Part shown: in pieces, positions 1-18,600 of the stretch
Layout: each line of letters begins with the position of its first letter
How positions within the stretch are numbered: position 1 is the stretch's first letter
Origin: a virus
Strand: one strand, 5' to 3'
DNA length: 20,945 bases
IMG/VR virus record: IMGVR_UViG_3300048550_000446
Span: 1 to 20,945 of that record
The notes under the pieces: generated by a model
Told to the model about the DNA's origin: nothing
The model's database searches: none
What the model saw: only the letters and a program-made list of their open reading frames with translations
Translations under genes and position numbers: made by a program

Positions 1-126
1 CATGTATATAAACCAGCATCGTTCAAATCTCCTGCAAAACATATTCGTTACAATTTGTTGGTTGATAACTCCCGCGAAGAATGTCTGTCCCGTTGTGATT
101 GGGCAGGAGGTTATCTTTACATGTAA
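1..126 (+). CDS. C-terminal end of a hypothetical protein (5' clipped)
   Basis: Frame 1 is open from the first base and ends at TAA 124-126, giving 41 residues that end GGYLYM. There is no in-frame start, so the gene begins before the window. The composition (mixed charged and aromatic residues, two Cys in EECLSRC) looks like a real protein tail. A competing frame at 2-133 begins with ATG but gives a low-complexity, shifted-looking product, so I prefer frame 1. I do not recognise the family. Confidence 0.55.
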   Translation, partial: HVYKPASFKSPAKHIRYNLLVDNSREECLSRCDWAGGYLYM

Positions 127-138
127 AGTGTAAGGAAA

Positions 139-184
139 TCAAGGGGGAATAAACCAGTTGACGTACTGGCACAACACCCCTTGA
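139..184 (+). other. Nested stem-loop between the first two genes
   Basis: An outer 8-bp arm, TCAAGGGG (139-146), pairs perfectly with CCCCTTGA (177-184). Inside it CCAGT (154-158) pairs with ACTGG (165-169) around a six-base loop. The arms are exact, and no T-tract follows (the next bases are AAATTG), so this is not a standard intrinsic terminator. It may be an RNA-processing or translational control element for the gene starting at 216 or 237. Function is inferred only from the pairing. Confidence 0.5.
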
Positions 185-215
185 AAATTGCCCGAATCTG
201 TGCCATACTTACAGT

Positions 216-449
216 ATGGAAAACAAAGCAAACGACATGAAGACCCAATTCATTTCTCTCATCAAAAACAACGCATTTATCGATGCTATTAGTCAACTTC
301 CTCAGTTCGTTGATGATACAAATGCTGACTGCGATCTTGCCTATGATTGGGTGTGTGAAATGGCAAATTGTTCCTCCTTTGTTTGTGATAAAGAAGCATG
401 GGATTATTTCTACAATATGTTTGATTCCACTCAAACACTTGATGCTTGA
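216..449 (+). CDS. Hypothetical small acidic protein (77 aa)
   Basis: An open frame of 77 residues ending TGA 447-449. It is rich in Asp, Asn and aromatic residues and contains three Cys (DCDLAYDWVCEMANCSSFVC has four within residues 39-57 counting the first), with no membrane segment visible. I do not recognise the family. Two starts are possible: Met1 at 216 and an in-frame Met at 237 (MKTQFISL). Neither has a clear ribosome site. A weak sigma70-like pair, TTGAAA (181-186) and CATACT (204-209) with 17-bp spacing, would place the transcript start almost on 216 and so favour 237, but that promoter is only a 4/6 match at -10. A minus-strand frame across the same bases is a shadow. The next gene starts 39 bases downstream. 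Confidence 0.65.
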   Translation: MENKANDMKTQFISLIKNNAFIDAISQLPQFVDDTNADCDLAYDWVCEMANCSSFVCDKEAWDYFYNMFDSTQTLDA

Positions 450-488
450 TATTAACAACAACTCACCAAACTTTTTTCTCTCTAAATT

Positions 489-668
489 ATGACTACTTCA
501 AATCCTTACGTCAACACCCTCATCGAAATGGGTTATGATAAACAAGACTGCCAAGTCGCGTCTACTATGTTTCAAAAGAAAACTTTCCCTTGTGTTATCT
601 ACGGTCGTCAATTTGACACTGAAGAGCAATACTTTGCTGAACTACATGAGTATATGAATGGCATGTAA
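489..668 (+). CDS. Hypothetical small protein (59 aa)
   Basis: ATG at 489 opens a 59-residue frame to TAA 666-668, beginning MTTSNPYVNTLIEMGYDKQD and ending LHEYMNGM. It looks soluble and has no recognisable motif beyond a segment rich in Tyr, Phe and Glu near the end (EEQYFAELHEYM). There is no Shine-Dalgarno sequence. The leader is pyrimidine-rich (CTTTTTTCTCTCTAAATT directly before ATG), the pattern shared by its neighbours. The shared leader style and correct spacing between neighbours are the main support that it is real. Family unknown. Confidence 0.6.
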   Translation: MTTSNPYVNTLIEMGYDKQDCQVASTMFQKKTFPCVIYGRQFDTEEQYFAELHEYMNGM

Positions 669-3201: not shown

Positions 3202-3348
3202 ATGGCAAGAGCAAAAGTTGGTATCAGTGGTCAGGAATTTTTCCCCGCCAAACCGAAGACCACTCGTCAGGGAAGTTCTAAGAACACAAAATACGCTCCC
3301 ACGAGTCGTAATAGTGCTAAGAAGCGTTATCGGGGACAGGGGCGATGA
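3202..3348 (+). CDS. Very basic small protein (48 aa)
   Basis: 48 residues from ATG 3202 to TGA 3346-3348. It starts MARAKVGISGQEFFPAKPKT and continues as a low-complexity chain rich in Lys, Arg, Ser, Thr and Asn, ending KKRYRGQGR. The net charge is strongly positive with almost no acidic residue, so nucleic-acid binding or disorder is likely. The stop overlaps the next start (ATGA, 3345-3348). Similar short basic proteins occur beside the 217-residue gene in cyanomyoviruses as I recall them, which I cannot verify here. Confidence 0.7.
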   Translation: MARAKVGISGQEFFPAKPKTTRQGSSKNTKYAPTSRNSAKKRYRGQGR

Positions 3349-3998
3349 ATTTATTCTGTAATCTTCCTGCTGAGAAAGTATGGGTTCGTAAGGAATACCT
3401 AAGAGATCATCAGGATGGTCACGGAGAGTTTGTAGAGGGCGTCTGGATCACTGCTAAAAGCATACCCGGACGTGCTTTTTATTTTGAGACCTATCTACCT
3501 GAATATGGTGCAATGTTTGATAAGTTGCCCATTAGTGCATTTGTACGAGCACCAAAGACACCAGAACCTGATATGTCATTAGAGAACCTACAATTTTGGA
3601 ATTGTATGGACTATGGCGTTGCATGTATGAACAAAGGGTTCATCAGTTCAATGGATTGTGAGTTACGAACAAGAGATCATGGACTGGTAAGGGGTCAATA
3701 TTTGTTTACCCTAGACAACTACCACGCGAATCCAGACGTTGTAGATAATAATGTGAGTGAAGTTCCACAGGAGCACAAATCACATAACTGTGTTGCACTG
3801 GAGAATGGTCAATTTGCATTATACCCTAATAATCGAATGCGTTTGTATGATCTTTCTATTACACCAGAAGAACCAAAGGTTCCAGACTTCAAAGTAAGTA
3901 CGATTGAGTATCAAGTAGAGGCAGGTATTGAATGGGGACGATTAGGTGACACAGATGATTATTTTTGGGAAACGGCAAAGGAGAAGGAAGCTAGCTAA
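3345..3998 (+). CDS. Conserved cyanomyovirus-type protein (217 aa), function unknown
   Basis: 217 residues from ATG 3345 to TAA 3996-3998, coupled to the preceding gene by ATGA. The sequence is aromatic and His/Asp rich with many short beta-type stretches (FVEGVWITAKSIPGRAFYFE at residues 29-48; LYDLSITPEEPKVPDFKVST near 167-186), suggesting an all-beta globular protein. There is no signal peptide or membrane helix. I recall closely similar proteins just upstream of gp25 in T4-like cyanophages annotated only as hypothetical. The position before the baseplate genes fits a virion or assembly role, but that is inference. Its stop codon is embedded in the late-promoter-like GCTAAATAC. Confidence 0.85.
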   Translation: MNLFCNLPAEKVWVRKEYLRDHQDGHGEFVEGVWITAKSIPGRAFYFETYLPEYGAMFDKLPISAFVRAPKTPEPDMSLENLQFWNCMDYGVACMNKGFISSMDCELRTRDHGLVRGQYLFTLDNYHANPDVVDNNVSEVPQEHKSHNCVALENGQFALYPNNRMRLYDLSITPEEPKVPDFKVSTIEYQVEAGIEWGRLGDTDDYFWETAKEKEAS

Positions 3999-4081: not shown

Positions 4082-4199
4082 CGTTCCGGCACTTATGGAG
4101 AAAGATTTTGGCACTGTAGTGCTTATTACAGACCCAAAATCCGATTATTTGATGAAAAAAGCGGCCAAAAAGGTAAAAAATAACAAAAAAATTGACTGA
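4056..4199 (+). CDS. Small basic hypothetical protein just upstream of gp25 (47 aa)
   Basis: 47 residues from ATG 4056 to TGA 4197-4199, with a good ribosome site (CGGAGTAAAAA before ATG). It begins MGMNHVPDNVPALMEKDFGT. A hydrophobic strand (VVLITD, residues 21-26) is followed by a Lys-rich C-terminal helix (MKKAAKKVKNNKK). Its stop shares a base with the start of gp25 (TGATG), so it is probably needed for coupled translation of gp25, which lacks its own clear ribosome site. Function unknown. The upstream mini-ORF may belong to the same ancestral gene. Confidence 0.65.
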   Translation: MGMNHVPDNVPALMEKDFGTVVLITDPKSDYLMKKAAKKVKNNKKID

Positions 4200-4615
4200 T
4201 GGCACAAAAATCGGTAACGGGTAAGGATGTCAGTGTTTCTAAGGATTTTAAAGACATTGACATGAGTTTCTTAAAAAATCCATTTACTAATGATATTAGT
4301 GTTGTTAGAAACGAGGATGCTATTAAGCAAGCTTTGAAAAATATCATGCTTACCAAGACTACCGAGAAAGTGTTTGACCCTGAATTCGGTACTAATATCT
4401 GGGTATCCTTGTTTGAACCTATGGATGATATTACTGCCGATAGAATTGAACAAGAAATTATGAATGTAGTCGGGCAATATGAGACACGAATCACAATGCA
4501 AGACGTTGCCGTTGAACCTATTACCAGAGAAAACGCTTATCACATTTTTATCACCTATCGTATCATCGGTAGTCCGATGACCGAAACCGTTTCGTTTGTG
4601 TTAGAGAGGCCATAA
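4199..4615 (+). CDS. 25: Baseplate wedge subunit gp25 (GPW/gp25 family)
   Basis: 138 residues from ATG 4199 to TAA 4613-4615, close to T4 gp25 (132). The GPW/gp25 fold covers roughly residues 33-130. It contains VRNEDAIKQALKNIMLTKTT (36-55), the family's turn FDPEFGTNIW (59-68, with P61 and F63-G64), and a C-terminal pair of strands (AYHIFITYRIIGSPM). It shares ancestry with contractile-sheath baseplate proteins such as phage P2 gpW and T6SS TssE. In the virion it forms part of the inner wedge near the tube-sheath junction, interacting with gp6 and gp53. The gene overlaps gp6 by one base (TAATG), matching a conserved structural operon. Start chosen by length and coupling with the preceding gene. 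Confidence 0.95.
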   Translation: MAQKSVTGKDVSVSKDFKDIDMSFLKNPFTNDISVVRNEDAIKQALKNIMLTKTTEKVFDPEFGTNIWVSLFEPMDDITADRIEQEIMNVVGQYETRITMQDVAVEPITRENAYHIFITYRIIGSPMTETVSFVLERP

Positions 4616-6624
4616 TGATACCTAATAATTTAACAGGACTGGATTTTGTAGATATTAAGGCATCAATTGTCTCATATCTTAAAACCAGACAAGAATTTAC
4701 CGATTATGATTTTGAAGGATCATCTTTATCATATTTGGTAGATTTGCTTGCGTATAATACTTACTATACTTCATTTAATGCCAACATGGCAATGAATGAA
4801 GCATTTTTGCCGTCTGCAACTGTTAGGGATAATGTTGTAAATGTTGCAAAACTTTTAAATTATGTGCCTCATTCTAAAGTTGCTGCCGCAGCAGTTGTAA
4901 ATGTAAGCATACAAACGTCTCTTACTAATGGTGTATATCCTAGTTCACTGACCATTAGGAGGGGTCCTGTTGCTTCTGGGGGTAATTATGTATGGAATTG
5001 CCTTCAAGATACTACTGTTGAGGTAAACCCAACTACAGGGGCAGCATTTTTTGAGAATTTACAAATTAAAGAAGGTACAATTGTCAATTTCTCTTACATT
5101 GTTAATACATTCCAAACACAAATTTATCAGATTCCTTCATCCGATGCTGATATTTCTACACTTGAAGTAACAGTAAAACCTAACGAATCTTCAACTACAA
5201 GCGATATTTACAATCGTGCTGGTAATATTACTGATATTACTCCAACATCAAGAGTTTATTTTGTAAATGAGGGTGAAGATCAACGTTTTGAGGTGCGTTT
5301 TGGAGACAATAGTATTGGTAGATCACTTACTGATGGTGAAGTAATCAACTTTTCTTATCTTGTTAGTGATGCTAATGGGGCAAATGCTGTCCAAAAATTC
5401 CAATGGATTGGTCAATTTACTGATAGTGCAGCAATTCAGTACGCTCCGGCACTAGCACAGGTCTCAACAGTGACTGCATCTAGCGGTGGTGCGGAAGCAG
5501 AGAGTGTAGAATCAATCAAATATAACGCTCCACGCTATTATTCTTCTCAATATCGCGCTGTTACAGCACAAGATTACGCAATTTTAACAAAAAGTGTCTA
5601 TGATAACGCAGAATCTGTTGTTGCATACGGTGGAGATAGTCTAAATCCTCCAGTTTACGGAAAAGTTTACATTGCAGTGAAGACTAGAACCGGTTCTTTG
5701 CTTAATGACGCCACTAAAAAGCAAATTGCTACGGATTTACGCAAATATGCGATGGCATCTATCGATCCTGTGATTGTTGATCCGGAACAACTGTATATTT
5801 ACAACAAAATTTTCGTACAATACGACACTGGATGCGGATCTGACACCTCTACAATCAAAACAGAGGTTCAAAACGCAGTTTCTGAGTGGGCAACTCAAAC
5901 TGCTATCAATAATTTTAATTCTACATTCCGAGCTCAATCGTTTGAGAAGGCAATTACACTTGCAAGTAAGTGTATTACTGATGTTTCTCTGCAAACGACT
6001 ATTCTTCGGTATATTAAACCGCAAACAAATCAGACAAACAGTTATGTAATCACTACAGGAGCACCACTTTATAATTCTGCACCCAGTGTATCCTCTACAG
6101 ATGGTGTAAAGGAACCTATTTTACTGTCGGGTGTCTTCAGAACAGCAGATCGTCCTGGTGTAAACCAACAATTTGAAGATGATGGTTTTGGAAATCTTCG
6201 GATGTTCTATAATACTGGTACTAGAAAGGTATTTACTAATCTAACTGCCGGAACTGTAAATTATGATAGTGGAACTATTGTATTTGGTCCTGTGAATATT
6301 GTTGGATCGGGTTCAAATATTGCTGATACCGGTATTCAACTCACAAATAGTATTACTGGCACTGGTAATATTACTGATCCATCAGCATTACCTACGGATC
6401 TTCAAATTCCAGTACAATTTATCCCAGCAAACGCAGGATCAATTCCTTCTGCTACACCAGGAACTGTACTGAACATCATTTCTCCCGAAGTTTCAATTCA
6501 ACCGTTGGGTACTATTCCACCTCCATCTATCCCTCTAAATAGTTTGACACCAAAAGTATTTGACCAGACTCCTACAGTTATTGCTGTTGCTTCTGCGCTG
6601 AATACAGGGTCACTTAACACATAA
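4615..6624 (+). CDS. 6: Baseplate wedge subunit gp6 (baseplate J-like)
   Basis: 669 residues from ATG 4615 to TAA 6622-6624; T4 gp6 is about 660. The N-terminus carries the gp6 signature, EGSSLSYLVDLLAYNTYYTS (residues 34-53), followed by MNEAFLPSATVRDNVVNVAK (residues 60-79). The middle has a beta-domain turn (RFGDNSIGRSLTDGEVI, about residues 228-244), then the baseplate-J-like segment (APRYYSSQYRAVTAQDYAIL near 305-324). The C-terminal third is rich in Ser, Thr, Pro and Gly. Gp6 dimers join neighbouring wedges into the inner ring and rearrange when the sheath contracts. It is one base from gp25 and 18 bases before the giant gene, in the same frame as the latter but separated by a true stop. 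Family assignment is firm. Confidence 0.95.
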   Translation: MIPNNLTGLDFVDIKASIVSYLKTRQEFTDYDFEGSSLSYLVDLLAYNTYYTSFNANMAMNEAFLPSATVRDNVVNVAKLLNYVPHSKVAAAAVVNVSIQTSLTNGVYPSSLTIRRGPVASGGNYVWNCLQDTTVEVNPTTGAAFFENLQIKEGTIVNFSYIVNTFQTQIYQIPSSDADISTLEVTVKPNESSTTSDIYNRAGNITDITPTSRVYFVNEGEDQRFEVRFGDNSIGRSLTDGEVINFSYLVSDANGANAVQKFQWIGQFTDSAAIQYAPALAQVSTVTASSGGAEAESVESIKYNAPRYYSSQYRAVTAQDYAILTKSVYDNAESVVAYGGDSLNPPVYGKVYIAVKTRTGSLLNDATKKQIATDLRKYAMASIDPVIVDPEQLYIYNKIFVQYDTGCGSDTSTIKTEVQNAVSEWATQTAINNFNSTFRAQSFEKAITLASKCITDVSLQTTILRYIKPQTNQTNSYVITTGAPLYNSAPSVSSTDGVKEPILLSGVFRTADRPGVNQQFEDDGFGNLRMFYNTGTRKVFTNLTAGTVNYDSGTIVFGPVNIVGSGSNIADTGIQLTNSITGTGNITDPSALPTDLQIPVQFIPANAGSIPSATPGTVLNIISPEVSIQPLGTIPPPSIPLNSLTPKVFDQTPTVIAVASALNTGSLNT

Positions 6625-6642: not shown

Positions 6643-9600
6643 ATGAATATTAATAAGGTCTCTCAGTCTCTGTTATCTCAATCTCCAGAGTTTGTACAGT
6701 CCGAATATCCATTATTCAATAAATTTCTTGAGTATTACTATAAATCTCAGGAAAAAACCGGTTTAGGTCAAAATATTCTTAATAACTTTTTGAGTTATTT
6801 GGATATTGATCACCTTGACGTAAAGATTCTTGATGGAAAAACTACGTTAGCGCAAGATATTACTGATATTTCTAATCAGATTGTAGTTGAGTCTGTTGAT
6901 GAGTTTTTAGATCAGAATGGTTCTATTTTAATTGGTGATGAAGTAATTTATTATGAAAGTACGACATCTTCTCCTAATATTGCTCTCAGTCCCGGTATTT
7001 CTTACAGTCAAGTAAAATTAAAGTGGACTAATCTTGCGACGATTGTAGATCAGTTTGATGGTACTAGGAGAGATTTCCAATTGATCTCTCAAGACAATCC
7101 TATCACTGCTCCTAGTCCTCAACATTTGATTGTAAGTAATTACAATGAAGTTTTGATTCCTGTTGTTGATTACGTTATTCAGGGAGATAGAATTGTATTT
7201 ACAGAAGCACCTAGAGCAAAGGTTGCTTCTGACGATACTACTACTACCTTTATCACTTACTTTATTGGTTTTACTGAAAATCCAATTGTTCCCATTGACA
7301 ATCTTGCACCTTCCTTTGGTGATGGTAAAACAATATTTTCCTTAACTAGAGGTGGAGTTTCATATGAACCCATCATTGACGAGTATGTTGTTGCTGTTTA
7401 TGATGGTCGTCATTTAACACCAAAGGTAGATTATTTTCTCGATGCTGATAAAATTATATTTAATTTTGTTCCTATTGTAGGTAGATCTATTTCACTTTAT
7501 GTTATCGAAGCACCCATCCCCTCTTTTGGTGGCGGTGCTAAGGGTTATGCTCGTATTGATGATAATGGACAACTAACAAAAATTGCAACTTCGGATCTGG
7601 GTACAGGATATAGATTTGAATATCCCCCAAAAATTTCCATCAACTCGGAAAATGGTTTTGGTGCTGCAACAGCATCTTTAGTTGATGGTATTAAAAATAT
7701 TTTGCTTCTTGATGGGGGAACTGGGTATAGTGACACCAATCCTCCTATTGTTGAAGTTCAAGCACCGAATAAAGAGGGTTCTGAAGTATCTAAAATTAAG
7801 GCTACGGTAACTAACGGTAGCGTAACTGCTTTGGAGATGTTGAGTTCCGGTAGCGGATATACATTCACTCCTAGAATTACATTTAAACAACCTGGTGGTG
7901 CTATTATTGCATCCCCTACTATGGCTAACGGATCTGTAGTTGGATCTCCTGTAGTTACTCATCAGGGCGAAGGATACGCCACAAGACCGACGATTTATGT
8001 TGATGAACCAACTGGTGCAAACGCTATTAAAGCGTCCTTCCAAGCGATTTTGAGTGAGGATGGGCGTCTTACAGGTCTTACTGTTCTTAATCCTGGTCAG
8101 GGGTATGAAGTACCTCCTAGAATTGCTGTAGTTGATCCAGTTGGTGCTCAAGTATTGCAGACATTTGTTGATGGTAATGGTCGTGTAACTGATATTGAAT
8201 TGTTAGATGGAGGTTCTGGATATGAAGAAGTTCCTTCAGTTTATGTTGTAGATCCTAGATCCGATGATCCTGGTCAAGGAGCGACGGCAAGTGCTTCTAT
8301 CTTTAATGGTAGAATTACTGATATTAACGTGACTAATTTCGGTTCTGGATATAGTGCGGATTTTCCTCCGACTATCGTTATTCAATCTCCCCCTTCAGCA
8401 AGAGCATCCGCAGAGGTTGGACTAAATGAAGTTACAGGTTTTAAAGTATTCAAGACTGGTTCGGGTTATAGTAAGGCTGCTTTCAATGGATGTGCCAGAG
8501 GTGTCTCTGCTATCACCGACTACGATCAAGTAGGAAATGCATCATTTTCTAATTACACATCATCTTCCGCAGCAACTGAAGGAACACAGGTCAAATGCTT
8601 AGATTCTCTCTTTGTTAAGAGAGTGCTTGACAAATATACGGAACAATATTTACCTGATGTTCCGGAATTAGATTATAAAAAGATTGATGTGCGTACTGCC
8701 ATCAGAACGATTAAGGATTTTTATTCAAGTAAGGGTACAGAATTTAGTATTGCTTATCTGTTTAAGTTGCTTTATGGGGAAAATGTAACTATTTCCTACC
8801 CCAAAGATCAAATTATCAAGCCTTCTGCGGCAACTTGGTCTATTGATACAATTCTTCGCGCAACTTTGGTGTCTGGAGATCCCGTAAATATCAAAGATGC
8901 TCTACTTACTCAAGAGTCTGATATTGCCGACTCAAATGTCCGTAGTGCTAGTGCTCTAGTTGAGAACTACATTTCAATTAAAACTTCGGAAGTTGATATC
9001 TATGAGTTAATTTTATCCGAAGAAACGATCAGTGGAAAATTTACTGTACCTTATAAGACGAGACTTGCGGAACCTCTCAATGAAACCGACAGTATTATTA
9101 CGGTTGACTCTACTATTGGTTGGCCAGAACGTAACGGTGAGTTCCTAATTGGAGGAACTGAACTTGTAAGATATAAGGAGAAATCGTTAAACCAGTTCAT
9201 TGAGTGTACTCGTTCCGTTAACGATGTAAGTTCTGTTTGGGATTCGGCAACAGAGATATCTTCCAACTTCACAGTGTACTTAAACAAAGACACTGCTGAA
9301 GAAGTAGTCATGAATATTGTCGGTATTGTTGATGCTCAACAAACAGTTTTGACAGATACAGGTTCTTATTATCTACCTGGTGATAAACTTTCTGTGTCTA
9401 AACTTGGAGGAACTACAACTATTCCCCAATTAACTACTTGGTTGTATAATGTTAAAAAACTTGTTACTGTAGAATCCATTACTTTTGGAGGTGTTAATGA
9501 TCAATCAGCAACTGTTACTTGTTCTTCTCCTCATGGTTTGTTGGTAGGTGATCAGGTTACTGTATATGGTGCCAATCCAATTCTGTATAATGGATCTTTC

Positions 9601-12600
9601 TTTGTAACATCTAGAGATTCTCAGACCGTTTTTCAATATCAATTACCGCAACCTGCTGCTGTAGTTCCTCAAGGTAATATCTTGATCTCTGTTGACCTCA
9701 ATAAAGGCAAGTCTATTACTCAAGCAATTCAGAATGCTATTGGTCCATATACCACTAATATTCAAAATACCTTCTTTAATGACAATTATGTATATGTTGC
9801 ATCTACGGGTATTCCTAACTATGAAATTGGTCCCTTCGTCGGTTCTGCACTTTTACCCGGCAACCAGCGTAAACTTAATAGATTTGAGTTAAATCCTACT
9901 ACAATTTCAACTAAAACCAGTGTTGTACCTGGTCCTATTGGTACATGGATCAATGGTGTATCTGTTTGGTCTTACAAATCGGAACTTAGTAAGACTTTTG
10001 GTGCTGTAACTAATATTAATATTTTAAATTCGGGTAATAATTATGATGCGGCGAGTCCTCCGGTTCTTGCTGTTTCTGGGGGTTTTGGTGCGGGAGCAGA
10101 AGCATCTGTCGTTGTTGACGGATCGTTGTTTGAAGTCGAAGTCACCAATGGAGGTTCTGGGTATACTTCATCTCCACTAGTCTCTATTGTAGGTGGAGGA
10201 GGTGCAGGTGCTGCTGCAACTGCAATTATTACTAAAGGTTCGGTTTCTAGAATTTTAATCAATCAAGGCGGTTCTGGATATACATCTCAACCTCTTATCA
10301 CTATTGTCGGTGGAGGTGGCACTGGTGCTGCTGCAACTGCTTCAGTTCGTGGTCCTATTAAGTCGGTTAATATTGATGCTGGTGGTGCATCATATACAGA
10401 AAAACCATCTGTTGTTTTGAGTTCTGGTCAAGGTGCAGTTGCACAAGCAATTGTTAATAATGGTAGAATTATCTCTATTGCTATTATTTCTGCTGGTTCT
10501 GGTTATACTACTGCACCGGAAATTGGCATTCAGGGTGAAGGTTTTGGTGCAATTGCTAGAGCGACTATTGATACCGATGGTGAAAATGCCGGTAGAGTTA
10601 CTGGAGTTGAAATTATTAACAAAGGTATTGGATATATTCAAGGAACTACTAATATTACGTTAACATCTGTTGGTTCTGATGCAACTTTTGATGCAGATGT
10701 ATTCCAGTGGAATTATAACTTGCAAGAGACTACTGAGTTTGATTCCGCGAAAGGTGCTATTTTCACTGGATTTAATATTCAATATGGTGGTGAATATGCA
10801 CACCTGTCCAATCCCCAAAGATTGAGATACATTCTCGGTGATAGTTTATACCAAGATACGGTTACCAATCAAATCAAAGAACAGGATGCTCAATTAGAGC
10901 ACTCTCCTATTATTGGTTGGGCATTCGATGGTAATCCCATTTATGGTCCATATGCATATTCGGATCCTACGGATCAATCATCCGAAATCCAAAGAATGGG
11001 AAGTTCCTATTCTTTAAAACCCGAATTGGTATACAATGACATCACAAATCCATATCCAGTAAGAACTGCAGGTCCTTTGTTAAATGATGAACCTGCTGGT
11101 AAGTTTGTTGAAGATTACGAGTATGTTTTTGGTTCGGGTGATCTGGATCAATATAATGGTAGATTCTGTAAGACTCCAGAATATCCTAGTGGTAGATATT
11201 GTTATTTTATAACTATCGATGCTTCTGAAAGTGGTAATCCAGTATTCCCTTACATTCTAGGACCCCAATATAACTCTGTAGTAGATATTTGGAACTTGAA
11301 TGATGATGCTGTTCAGCAAAATATTCCTACTGGTGTTGTCAGATATCGCGATCCTTATGAGAATGTTGATATTGATATCGAAAGAATTCCCAATGCTTCT
11401 ACAAATTCAATCACTACAGAAAGTGGTGAACTGCTTCTGTTTGAACCTGAAGATGAAAATAGAGATGGTGTAATCAGTCAGGATGAAATTGACGATCCTG
11501 AAGGAATACTTGAGGAATCTCCTCTGCAGTTGTTTGATTACTTCCCTAAAGTTAAATTTGACTCTAAGGTTGATATTGAAGTTGAAACCATCACTAAGTT
11601 TGAAGATGCATCTGTAACTGGATTTACTATCGAAAATGCTGGTGAAAACTATCAGGTTAATGATAGATTACTCTTTGATAATACGGATACGGATGGTACT
11701 GGTGTTTCTGCCAGAATATCTAAAATTAAGGGCGAAACAATATCTTCTTATAATTACGAGACCATTGAAGGTGTTAATTATGGCATCTTAAAAACATCAA
11801 CACCTCATAATATTAAGGTTGCTGATCAAGTCTATGTTGATTATACTCCATTGATGGATAACACCAATAAGGAGTTTATTGTCCGCCAATACAAAGGTAT
11901 TGAGGAAATTGTAGTTACTCAAAGTGGTAGCGGATATAATACCGACATTCCACCTACAATTGTTATCGATGGTGATGGTGTAGATGGTAGAGTTGAAGCA
12001 GTTGTTGATGCTGTTGGTGCTATTAAGACTTTTAATATCCTTAATTCTGGTTCTGGATACACTCAGAATCCTCGTGTTATCCTTTCTCACCCTCAGGTAT
12101 TCAAAAAAGCAGATTATTATACAACATTAGTTGAAAACTATAATTGGGTAAAAGTTGTTGATATTTTAGTCAATGATCAAAAAGAATCTTATGTTTGCGG
12201 TTCTACCTATGATAGTGCAAATAATAATGTTGCTTTCTTAGCTAAATTATCAGCAACTGGTGTTAAAGAATGGGAAAAGATGTTGGAGACTACGATTCCT
12301 GCTTCTGGAACGTTTACAGAATTCCAACGTATTATTAAAGATGGTTCGGATATCTACGTTGCTGGTATTAATAAACCAAATGCTACAGTTCTTGATTCTT
12401 ACAACCCGGATATTATTGTTGCGAAATATGCTGAAGCGACTAATGGTTTAAGTGCAACTCTTACTTGGCAGAAAGGATATGCCGGTATTTCCGGTTCTAC
12501 TAGATCCGACAACATTAGTGCATTCAAGCAGTTAAATGAGAATAGATTTGTTCTTGGAGGTTTTACTAATACTAACTCTGGTGCTCCTTGGGATGCGTTC

Positions 12601-15600
12601 TTAGCGATCATCGATACTGCTGGATTCTTCGTTGCTAAGAGAAAACTTGCTTCGGACAATCAATCCGAAAAGATTACTGATATTGCAATCCATGAAGGAA
12701 ATATCTACTTCACTATGGAGACTTCCTCTTCACAGTCTTCCAATGATGTTAACGTATCTTTCGGTAAAGCAATTCCTGCTACTGCATCTATTTCTATTGA
12801 TTGGATCAGAGAAGTTCAAAACACTACATATTCTTTCTTAAATTCATCTTTATGTGTCGATGAGTTTGGTGAATTCTATGTCCCATGTACTCTTAGATTG
12901 AAATCTGATGATACTACAAGAGATAGTGTTTGGGTTGGTAAGTTTGATAGTGCTGGAACATCTATTTGGAATAAGCAATATCAAGTCGGTTCCCAGATAG
13001 AATTAGTCGATAGATGCTCTGTTGATATTTTTGGCGATCTTACCATTGCCTATACCAAAGTCAATACTTCTGACACAAAGAGAACTATTAATAGTCTAAA
13101 GATTAAGTATGATGGAACCATGCTTAAGAATACTGAGAATGTGTTCAATGCTGTTACTCAAAATGCTACATCTACCTGCATTGAAGGTATTACCGTTCAT
13201 GCACTGACAACAGATAGCTCTGGTGATGTTTATACCTTTGGTCAAACTCAATGGAATAGAAATGAAGCTGTAATTCCATTTACCACAGATGCTAGCGATA
13301 TTACAAGTCACCATACACCTACTGCTGTAAGTGCTAGTGGCGGTCATACCATCGCTGATGGTATGTTAAAAATCTACGGTCATGCCTCTGGTAATAATGC
13401 AACATGGGATAATTCTTATCTCAAGATTCCTGCATCTAGTGTTGCTAACAAATTGAATGGTGATTGGACTTTACAGTTCTTTATCTACAAGGACTCTACC
13501 AAGTCTCAGACACTTTCTCAAAATGTTCAGACATTAATTGGTATTGGTGGTGCTCAAGATGCTACTGGAGGTCTTTGGTTAGGATATGACACTGGTAACA
13601 CAGGAAAACTCCAGATGGTTATCAGTAATAGTACCACAGCATTAAATGTTGCTGGTTCTGGATTAAGTTCTGCTTTAACCAGCATGTATGCTGATAATAC
13701 ATGGCAAGTAATTAGCTTAACCAAGCAAGGAACATTATTTAAGGCATGGGTTAATGGAATTGAAGTTCTTACTGGTAATGTAACTAACACCGACTTTTCT
13801 AATAAAGATATCTACATTGGCAACCAAGTCGGTTGGGGTGCTACTGCTACAGATTTTGCTTCCACATATCAAGGTCAATTCTACGTTGACCATCTGTTCT
13901 TTAAGAATCGTTATATCGCACCTTCTGTTCCGAGTGATATTACTGTGCTTCCTACAACTGGAGCATTTGCAGAAAACTTTGATTGGGTAGACGATGCTTG
14001 GTTTACTACAAATCTCAATCGTTATGATTATATCGATTATGTTGGATATGGATTAAAGACCGACAAGAACTCTGATGCGGTTAATGTTGGTGCTATTGGA
14101 TCTCAAGCAAACACCAAACTTGATATTACTAGAAATGTCATCACTTCTATAACTGGTGTTGATCTTACACTTTCAAATGCTGGTTATGCTTTAGGTGGAG
14201 AAGGATTCCAATCTCTTGATTTTAATGATGCAAATAGCAATCTTTCTCAAGATACAGAATCTTTAGAAATTACTCAGGATATCTGGGGGTCTCGTACAGC
14301 AACAGTTCCTTCACCCGGATCCCAAAAAGTTAAGGCAACTGCTGTAGTTAAAGATCGTTATTTCTTCAAAGTATGCAATACTATTAAAATTGATAATGTT
14401 CAAAGATTAACGATTAATCAACCGTTCGATTTTACTATTGGTTCAAAATTAACCTTAACTAATGGTAGTACATTTATTAATAGCGGTTATATTATTGATA
14501 CAGATACAACATCAAATAGATATGTCTATGTTGCTGTCAACAATAATGAATGGACTAATGACTTGGATACTGGTCATCTTGCAACCGAGAGATTTGATGA
14601 GCAAGATACTTATGGTATTAGAGGTCCAGTTCCTAATGATGTTAATGTTATATCAAAATATACTTTCTCTCAAGTAGTTAACACCACACCTGGTACTTTT
14701 GATATTGCTCTTAGTAGCTATGATGCTCCTCCGATTGTTGGCGGAACTAATAATTTACACGAATATTCATATTTTAGACCTTACAATGATGAAGATTATT
14801 CTGTGAGAATTGATGAAATTTCTGGTAGTTCTCCTTATATTGTAGGTTCTGTTGTAAGTCTATCTGATGCTACAGTCACCTATAACGCATCTTACAATAC
14901 AATTAATATTCAAGGATTGACAGGTGTCGCTAAAATTACATTAATCACCAATCTGAATAAGATTCTTCAAGTAGATGCTGTTTCTAATAGTGATTTGGTC
15001 TATGTTATTACTGATACTAGCCATTATCTTTCTGATGGTGAAGTTATCTATGTTGATGGTAATCCATCCGAAGAAGTTGGCAATCCTGCAGTTGTTTATG
15101 ATGAATATGACGGTGCATTCCCTGTTCATAATGTAATTAGTGTTAAGGAATTTACTTATAAACTGGACAATATTGCCGTTTCTTCTCCTGCCACAAATGC
15201 ATCTACAGTTGGAATATATGTTAAGTCACCGACTCTTAAGATGTATTATGGACACCAGTATATCTTTGATTTAAGTCACTCTTCCTTAGTTGGTGGAAAC
15301 TTATCTTTCTCTAAGGATAGCTTGAATAAGTTGGAGTATTCCTTTAACTCTATTGAGCGTATTGGTACTCCTGGTGTAACTGGTGGGGGTCAACCAAATC
15401 CATCTGTTAAGTTAAAGGTAGATAGAGATATTGTCACCAATATTTCATACTATTTCGATCCATCTAGAACAGGATCTGATTCTCCTGTAATTGAAGGTTC
15501 TTATTTAGACGTTGTTGGTTCTCCTTATGAGGGTTCCTTTACTGTAACTAGCACTTCTGGTGCTACTATTACAAGAGGTGCTGACATAATGAGATTCCCT

Positions 15601-18600
15601 CTGGTCAATGAACCCGAAGGAAACGCCGATGTAATTAACGCATCTTATTCTACTGCTTCTGAAGCTGCAGTTGGTTCTATTCATGAAGTTCGTATTGTCA
15701 ATAAAGGCGGTTTCTATACTAAACTTCCAATCGTTACTGGTATTCAGTCCAACAGAAAAATTGAAAGAATTCAAATTAATGAGCCAGGCACCGAATATGC
15801 ACCAGGACAATACAACAATGTTCCTATTCAAGGTGATGGTGAGGGTGGTCTTGTTAATATCACTGTTGAAGATACTACTGATGATGAGGGTAACACTGTT
15901 CCTGGACAAATTACTTCTGCTATCATAAATTCGTCTGGTAAGGGATATACCACCGCATTTATTGATGTTCAGTCTATTAATGGGATTCTTGGGTCTAGTC
16001 TTGCTGGATCCGGTGCTGAGTTGGTAGTTGTTATCCCACCCTTTGGTACTGGAGCTTCTATCTTCACTAAAGGTCAAGAAGTTGGTAAAATTAAGAAACT
16101 TAAAAATAATAACTTTGGTTATGATTATCCTCACGATTATACCCTTAGACCCGAAATCACTTTCCCACTGAACTGTCAATTAACTTCTACGAGTATTTTG
16201 GACAGTATTACAGTAACCGATCCGGGTTCTGGATATTCTCAAGCACCCGCAGTTATTATTACGGGTGGTGGCGGATCTGGTGCTACAGCAGAGGCAACTA
16301 TTGCTAATGGTAGACTCGATCAAATTGCAGTTAAAGATCCTGGTGCTGGTTATTCTTCTACTCCAACCGTCGCTCTTAGATCTTCATTTAACTATGTTGT
16401 TAACCTTGATCTTGGATTATTACAATTTGCATTCCCTCACGGTATCATTAATGGTTCTGAAGTTACTCTGAATGTTGTAGATACTGGTGAGGGAGCAGAA
16501 TTCCCACTGTCTGCAGGTGCTTTAGGTAGGTTAAATGGTAATACCACTTATTATGCAATTGCTGGATCTGCACAATCCCTTGATGATGATCAATTAAAAT
16601 TAGCAATCACAGCAACAAACGCCGAACTTGGTGATGCAATTAGTTTCGTTAATGGTGGCATTGGTCGTAATCAAGTATTGACCGAATCATTTGGTGGTAC
16701 TGCAACAGCAAACGTAATTACATCTACTTTCCTTGAAGGTGAACTTGTATATCAAGGTTCGAGTATCGAAACTGCAACCGCGACTGGATATGTTTCCACT
16801 AACAGCGGTTGGCAAGTTGGTCCCAGAATCCTTAAGGTCGTTGATTATGAAGGGGAGTTTGTTTCTGGACAAAGTATTACTGGTATTATTTCCAAGTCTT
16901 CTGGTATCATTAGTGACTTGAAAGTTGCTAAAGGTGTTCTTGAAATTGGTTCTATTACCAAAACTACTGGTCAATTTATTGATGATGTTGGTAAACCTTC
17001 TGAAATTATTCAGAAAGTACAGGATTCCTATTTCTATCAAGACTTCTCTTATGCTGTTAAGTCTTCTGTATCCGTAAGTGAATGGAAAGATGTTCTTATC
17101 AAGAACGTTCATCCCGCAGGATTCAAGGTGTTTGGTGAATTGAATATCAATGATTATGGTTATATCCCCAATAAAGAAACATCCTTTGAGTTAACAAAGT
17201 CTGTACAGTTAGCACAAGAATCAGTTGTTCCTAATATTCAGAGTTTTGCTCTTGTTGAACCGATTTATCAAGAGTTTAATAATACAGAAGTTCTGTTCCG
17301 TCAGAAGAGATTAACATCTTCAGAGAACATTTTAACCTCTGTTGTTCAGAGATTGGACGATATTTCTGGATTGTTTGATGGAGAAAGAATCTCTTTCCCC
17401 TTACAAGTCAATGGTGAGAACATTATTGCTGCATCAAATCAGTTAATGATCGTTCTTAATGGTGTTGTTCAGACTCCAGAAACTGCGTTTAAGGTGGAGA
17501 ATGATTCCATTGTATTCTCAGAACCTCCCAAACCCCCTGCTAGTGTTAAGTATGCTGAGATTACTATCTCACAACTTCCACAATCAATCTTTAACTTTAC
17601 TGATATTAGCGGCATTTTCCCGAATATTGGAGATACTATACAAGGTATTGTAAGTTCGGCTAAAGCAACAATAACTAAAGTTGAAGGTAGCAATCTTCAA
17701 GGTTTTATGACCGAAGGGACATTCCAGGTTGGAGAGTTGATTACTGGTAATGCTACTGGATTTAATGGTGATTTTGCTACTATCACCCCTGTAACCAATA
17801 ATGGTTTATTTGCTTTCAATGAAACCATTTCCAATTTGGATGGTGATACTGCAAAGGTTGAGGAAATTAATCTTGAAGGTGGTCAGCAAGAACCTTTGGG
17901 TACTTTAAGATATGGCATCGGTACTTCCACAACATCATTTGAAGTTCTGACTTCTGATGCTTCTCAGTTTGCTGTTAGTGATAACATTCAGATTGCGTCT
18001 GAAATTATGACCATTAGTGCAGTTACTGCTGGCAGTGAATCTGGAATTATTAATCTTCAGGTAAGTAGAGCACAACTTGGAACTGCCGCTGTTTCCCACT
18101 TACAGGCTGCTCCTTTATATGGTACTGATATTGAGATTGGTAATAATCTGATTCTTAGTAAAACCGCTGGAACATATCAATCTACACCAGGATTGTTTGA
18201 TATTGCATTAAATGACATTATTATTGGTGCTAAATCTGGAGTTGTTGCTACGGTTACTGCTACAAGTCCTTATCAAGATCCAGCAACTCAACAGTTTATT
18301 AGTCAGGTTAATATTTCACCTGGAGCAAGTTTCTCCGGTCTTCTGTTCAACAGAATTACTAGTATTAACTATCAAAACGTTGTTCTTGATGATATTTCTG
18401 CATCTCAAATTAGTATTGTTGATTTTGATGATAATACGACTCCGTTTGATTCCAACTTCCCAGCAAATGAAATTATCAACAATATTGTAATTGATGTTGT
18501 TAATGTTAATGGAACTTTCCAAGAAGGTGAAAAAATTAGAAATAAGAGAGTCGAACTTTCAAATACTGTTGGTGATTTTATTACCGATGAAAATACTTCC

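Follow-up and report, generated by a model that had tools for sequence, protein, structure and literature searches.

Alternating spacing of GxGY units inside a putative gp7-type baseplate wedge protein of T4-like marine cyanophages

The window analyzed here is the whole source record, a virus fragment of 20,945 bases, and all features described lie on its plus strand. A gene for a gp25-type baseplate wedge or sheath initiator protein (4199..4615; Pfam GPW_gp25, E 2.3e-16) is followed by a gene for a gp6-type baseplate wedge protein (4615..6624; Pfam Gp6-like_1st, E 2.1e-18). Directly downstream of gp6, in the position of gp7, a giant open reading frame (6643..20943) runs for 4767 codons and is still open, with no stop, where the record ends. 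PHROG 701 ("virion structural protein") spans this giant ORF, and the Pfam baseplate wedge family (Baseplate_wedge PF23786, E 1.7e-8) falls on its residues 678-724. Upstream of gp25, an ORF of 217 aa (3345-3998) matches PHROG 3704, labeled ferredoxin, and had zero Pfam matches at E 0.1. Further along the giant ORF, a Laminin_G_3 or concanavalin-like domain (E 7.2e-21; residues 4174-4317, window 19162-19593), probably a sugar-binding part, lies near the open end. Also late in the giant ORF, window positions 19057-19100 and 20440-20483 share 80% DNA identity, which may point to another family of repeats, unlike the first, at about residues 4139-4613.

We found a gp7 signature, DFYxxKG...LFKLLY, at residues 689-719 (8707..8799), aligned to residues 730-760 of T4 gp7. 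Alignment with hhalign against six T4-type gp7s gave a short match of 31 columns at 52% identity (E 1.3e-8, probability 95.6%), blastp gave 61.5% over 26 residues at the signature, and a PDB profile search put a gp7 chain first (E 0.045). With an E limit of 10, 1933 phage records matched a 114-residue stretch that follows the array of GxGY units described below; they extend from cyanophages at the top to gp7 genes in T4-like phages that infect enterobacteria and other hosts, and many of the matches are weak. Together with the gp25 and gp6 neighbors, the signature identifies the giant ORF, at the level of sequence, as a baseplate wedge protein of the T4 gp7 type, from a T4-like (marine) cyanophage. 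The helical, V, and VI Pfam domains, which are present in T4 gp7, were not found in the giant ORF at E 0.1, and we therefore use the label gp7-type rather than treat it as a full T4 gp7. The N-terminal 110 residues were rejected as a T4 gp7 match (probability 0.3%). Among the relatives, S-RIM8, P-HM1, and P-HM2 carry the annotation gp7 and S-H38 that of baseplate wedge initiator; the others are not so annotated. A passage in PMC7029224 describes T4 gp7 as absent from cyano- and pelagimyophages and replaced by VrlC. In Stenotrophomonas phage YB07, a 503-aa protein after gp6 (L181 2749-4260), annotated hypothetical, has just ~60 residues between a DFYxxRG signature and a helix-like stretch at its N-terminus, and is a minimal form of the gp7 core.

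An AlphaFold2 model was built for residues 1-760 from 62 sequences (mean pLDDT 72, pTM 0.58), with pLDDT of about 90-95 at residues 340-600, which hold the array, and <50 at residues 1-63 and 658-760. Residues 1-60 (6643..6822), presumed to be part of the gp7 core bundle, were modeled as helices at 4-13, 16-21, 23-35, and 42-52, at pLDDT <50, and this region aligned to P-HM1, P-TIM68, ACG-2014f, and S-PM2. With both the signature and the N-terminus in these low-scoring parts of the model, their placement in the wedge rests on sequence.

Comparison of twelve cyanophage gp7s showed that five (P-HM1, P-HM2, P-TIM68, ACG-2014f, and S-PM2) lack the block that contains the array. Laboratory cyanophages that carry the array include Syn19 and S-RIM8. 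P-HM1 residues 34-132 align to residues 5-106 of the window protein and P-HM1 residues 132-413 to residues 610-886, so that both pieces meet at P-HM1 residue 132; P-TIM68 and ACG-2014f behave in the same way. For S-PM2, residues 5-120 of the window protein align to 6-121 and residues 614-1197 to 113-688. The gp7 signature stands at residue 192-215 in the five block-less proteins and at 690-704 in six block-bearing ones, and the signature search pattern had no match in the seventh, ACG-2014d. The ~500-residue block (residues about 107-609; 6961..8469), missing as one piece from P-HM1 gp7, is therefore a clean insert relative to its sisters. On a tree of the twelve cores, which has long branches for ACG-2014f, S-PM2, and P-TIM68, array presence maps as one change (support 87/97, 88% of bootstrap trees); one gain or loss suffices, which is not proof of a single event. 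Fold matches that span model range 64..657 (for example, 8rk3_b, Z 9.3, rmsd 2.3, 75 residues aligned), together with the P-HM1 alignment, suggest that the block interrupts one small beta domain, whose putative pieces are residues 61-106 (6823..6960) and 614-657 (8482..8613).

Two further proteins bear on this region. S-PM2d081 (L175 5531-14677; 3048 aa, annotated hypothetical) occupies the place of gp7, flanked by gp6 and the gp8 region, and lacks the array block but retains the region of a second GxGY cluster; a passage in PMC9910659 names it among very large proteins mutated by day 39 of co-culture. For the XM1 gp7 orthologue, PMC10457771 defines domain I as residues 1-79 plus 107-133, with an unresolved stretch, 80-106, said to bind the tail spike. 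By analogy, this stretch would parallel the array block in position, inside the same N-terminal core domain.

The inserted block opens with what appear to be two fibre-anchor-type beta domains. Residues 132-210 (7036..7272) are likely the first, as judged from model strands, an apparent sequence resemblance to the domain that follows, and one weak fold row (6qx4_A, 132..209, Z 3.9). Residues 214-291 (7282..7515) matched 7rfo_C (Z 8.9, rmsd 1.8, 67 aligned), 7boz_a (Z 6.3, rmsd 2.6, 70 aligned), and the T4 baseplate chain 5iv5_B (Z 5.2), and recovered the fold of the T7 gp17 N-terminal domain at a model pLDDT of only about 65-80.

Behind these domains lies the array, with GxGY tyrosines at residues 323, 362, 406, 445, 488, 527, 570, and 609 of the giant ORF. 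The preliminary description gave the Tyr intervals over eight units as 39, 44, 39, 43, 39, 43, 39, which is exact as written. The seven spacings can be arranged in 105 distinct orders, 3 of which alternate strictly, a chance of ~0.03. Conservation is a stronger argument for the alternation than this calculation. In an alignment of 62 rows (A1), comprising the window and 61 of 80 IMG/VR loci (the 19 omitted, largely near-duplicates, were chosen by eye), interval 2 is 44 and interval 7 is 39 in every row, and the remaining intervals are mostly 39 when odd and mostly 42-48 when even. Strict alternation, in which every odd interval is shorter than every even interval, holds in 57 of 62 rows (all except L007, L005, L014, L079, and L066), a count that measures conservation and not 57 independent trials, since the rows are related by descent. 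The 80 IMG/VR relatives together show 26 spacing patterns, mostly variants of 39-44-39-42-39-(42 to 48)-39, some of which include a turn missed by the pattern search. The six isolates that were aligned share 43-64% identity with the window and alternate without exception, with odd intervals ≤41 and even intervals ≥42; in one, S-H38, the intervals are 39, 45, 40, 44, 41, 48, 39. Relatives of the array came from 306 records of phages, with names given as Synechococcus, Cyanophage, or Prochlorococcus and in a single case as Marine. No DNA-level tandem repeats were found, which argues that the units are old.

The model places the variation in spacing at one point in the unit. Each unit is predicted to have three strands, a-b-c, in which a hairpin joins a and b, followed by the GxGY turn and a short strand c. 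By these model strands, the Tyr-to-c segment has 5-7 residues, strand c 4-5, and the segment from a to the next Tyr 22-27, and the c-to-a loops after units 1-7 have 4, 11, 2, 11, 5, 11, and 6 residues; the odd intervals sum to 39 despite differing component lengths. As modeled, the alternating part of the Tyr spacing is the loop from c to the next a. Odd loops are all shorter than even loops in 62 of 62 rows of the alignment, with strand borders taken from the window's own model. The predicted long loops, of 11 residues each, follow unit 2 (7759..7791), unit 4 (8002..8034), and unit 6 (8251..8283), the last being 11 residues in the window and an indel hotspot in relatives. These loops also hold the extra 4-5 residues that had been reported between units, a description that is correct when the unit is read as strands a-b-c; the extra residues fall in the middle of the GxGY-to-GxGY interval.

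Because the loop lengths alternate and fold-match borders span two units, the folding unit in the model is probably a pair of ~82 residues in the frame 2+3, 4+5, 6+7. Putative sandwich 1, units 2+3 (residues 339-415, 7657..7887), comes from the model strands and the loop lengths. Putative sandwich 2, units 4+5 (residues 418-497, 7894..8133), is modeled and has a VIA fold match over 418..501 to 1eut (Z 3.4). Putative sandwich 3, units 6+7 (residues 503-580, 8149..8382), is modeled and has VIA matches over 501-503..582-585 to seven chains (8wa2_A, 5mf1_B, 8rw9_H, 7t17_A, 9eq4_H, 7mrq, and 6y5f_B; Z 3.1-3.6). All eight matches are weak (Z 3.1-3.6, 68-77 residues aligned, rmsd 3.0-3.8), and their borders near 418, 501, and 584 fall after units 3, 5, and 7. 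Several of the eight chains are Ig- or FN3-like domains; the Ig-like fold is a Greek-key sandwich with two sheets and 7-9 strands. The guide of the fold-comparison tool itself states that Z <8 may mean only a common arrangement, and the two-unit matches, at Z 3.1-4.4 with the second cluster included, may reflect only a common sandwich arrangement. Foldseek against the PDB returned nothing at E ≤0.001 for the models of the array and of the second cluster; against predicted viral structures, its top matches were cyanophage relatives. Sequence searches of the array found no relative of solved structure at E 1 and no Ig-type Pfam family at E 10, a search in which HMMER filters lose weak matches. 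The sole Pfam match on the array at E 10, RHS_repeat (E 0.0089), was below its cut-off and taken as chance.

A pair of ~82 residues had been proposed as the true building block, and the alternation of lengths, the loop lengths, and the borders at 418-501 and 501-584 all favor it. The preliminary description had further set a fold of separate domains against the pair; the model suggests tandem two-unit domains, which supports it. Unit 1 (residues 300-334, 7540..7644) at the array start and unit 8 (residues 587-615, 8401..8487) at its end have no partner in this frame, and this counts against our preferred explanation.

The pair had also been described as made of unlike units, with odd units expected to align better with odd and even with even. 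That preference was not seen in three forms of test. With ungapped profiles, the proportion of splits at least as good as the odd/even labeling was 0.11-0.66 over nine measures; with global profile alignment of single units it was 0.20-0.86 over four measures; and with loops cut out, 17 of 35 label splits were at least as good. A comparison of two-unit stretches is uninformative, as neighboring pairs share one unit. What remains of the claim is a weak even-even preference: likeness among odd units is absent, and none of the 35 possible triples shows closer mutual likeness than units 2, 4, and 6, whether the loops are kept or removed. Likeness at lag 2 versus lag 1 was 41 versus 35 by single-unit profile alignment and 38 versus 34 with loops cut.

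The same unit type recurs downstream in a second cluster of six GxGY-type units (9967..10677), directly after which comes a YHYH domain (PF14240, E 6.7e-31; residues 1356-1527, window 10708-11223). This cluster was said to lack the alternation, and its near-uniform spacing of 39, 39, 38, 37, 43 in 67 of 68 rows, a count that takes looser turns as well as GxGY, bears this out; its c-to-a loops are uniformly short. It was also said to use the same motif in a different architecture. We could not uphold this, as the best fold rows of the cluster model (pLDDT 90) likewise cover two units (model residues 161..243; Z 4.4, rmsd 3.1, 71 aligned). With matches at two units and no alternating loops, the second cluster indicates that alternation is unnecessary for pairing. 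Its sole sequence match of solved structure, thioredoxin reductase (E 0.71), is at chance level, and its Pfam matches at E 10, FlgD_tudor and DUF4342, were both below their cut-offs and taken as chance. A profile of 18 units of the ORF recovers the eight array units, the six of the second cluster, and pairs at 1765/1806 and 3198/3237, these being the very units from which it was built.

These results can also be read without pairs. Each unit of 39-44 residues could be its own repeat in a continuous beta solenoid or ribbon, where the alternation of loops would be minor geometry, such as that of two faces. The lack of a general odd/even sequence preference agrees with this, as do the uniformly short loops of the second cluster in the same unit type, and a sheet could run on through the short c-to-a links that follow units 1, 3, 5, and 7. 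The fold matches, however, end at two-unit borders, and no solenoid is among the fold-match rows listed, and we regard this reading as unlikely. A pairing in the frame 1+2, 3+4, 5+6, 7+8 would use all eight units; each pair would then contain a short interval, and the long loops would be flexible linkers from one domain to the next. Tolerance of indels is typical of long linkers, and the loop that follows unit 6 is an indel hotspot. Borders near 418, 501, and 584 instead put the long loop inside the matched domain, which makes this frame very unlikely. Finally, that the alternation is only a leftover from copying of an ancestral 82-residue pair, with no structural role today, would fit the likeness of units 2, 4, and 6 but is highly improbable, given that the odd units are unlike, that lag 2 likeness is barely above lag 1, and that lengths are held at only 43-50% sequence identity.

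An ordinary structural cause probably underlies the alternation. We favor an explanation in which the array is a run of eight beta units (strands a-b, GxGY turn, strand c) inserted in a gp7-type wedge protein, where units 2+3, 4+5, and 6+7 would each pack as one six-stranded sandwich of ~82 residues. The c-to-a connection within a pair, after units 2, 4, and 6, would cross over and need 11 residues; successive pairs would be joined, after units 1, 3, 5, and 7, by a tight link of 2-6 residues. Tyr spacing would then alternate, though unit sequences do not, because the two connections are not equivalent. The array would form the second part of the ~500-residue block, behind the two fibre-anchor-type domains, and the block would interrupt the small beta domain that separates the DFYxxKG helix of gp7 from its N-terminal helices. 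The core of the (gp6)2-gp7 wedge would hold both the helices and the signature, and the block would project from it, the two anchor-type domains first and the paired sandwiches beyond them. The array would thus most likely be an arm on the baseplate rim, acting at adsorption as a spacer or adhesive, either in contact with the cyanobacterium or positioning, holding, or substituting for fibre parts. As a whole, we consider this explanation moderately probable.

A variant follows from the shared point at which the block departs from the gp7 core and returns to it. Units 1 and 8 could combine as a fourth sandwich; the array would then close into a loop or double back, as an arm clamped to the wedge. 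We think this quite unlikely; if true, alternating loop length would be a code that sets which neighbors pair.

T4-like cyanophages are described as abundant in the ocean (PMC3037559), and according to a review they lack g10, g11, g12, and fibre genes (PMC2984593). A gp7 signature in the giant structural protein would restore a conserved wedge to these phages, and a clade-specific block in a gp7-type protein would be a testable candidate for host contact. The alternating spacing offers a simple sequence rule with which to seek half-domain pairs in other phage repeat proteins, and, with the nested insertion in the gp7 core, would be useful and testable. Searches of open PMC papers listed none whose title or abstract described this array, this giant protein, or Ig-like domains of the cyanophage baseplate.

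In its DFYxxKG...LFKLLY signature, its gene order after gp6, and its N-terminal helices ahead of a helical core, the giant protein resembles T4 gp7 and orthologues such as XM1 gp17. T4 gp7 has 1032 aa with its extra domains N-terminal to the signature, whereas here ~500 residues lie inside the core and thousands after it. Cyanophage proteins annotated as gp7 or as virion structural protein (PHROG 701) belong to the same family and stand in the same place, and the six array-bearing isolates examined keep the alternating spacing as in the window. Residues 214-291 are like the anchor domains of the T7 gp17 N-terminus and CBA120 TSP4 (Z 6-9) but are internal, just ahead of the array. The putative sandwiches are like the Ig- and FN3-like domains of phage structural proteins in their ~82-residue size and weak sandwich-type fold match, and unlike them in that each putative domain would be made of two like half-domains with a GxGY turn.
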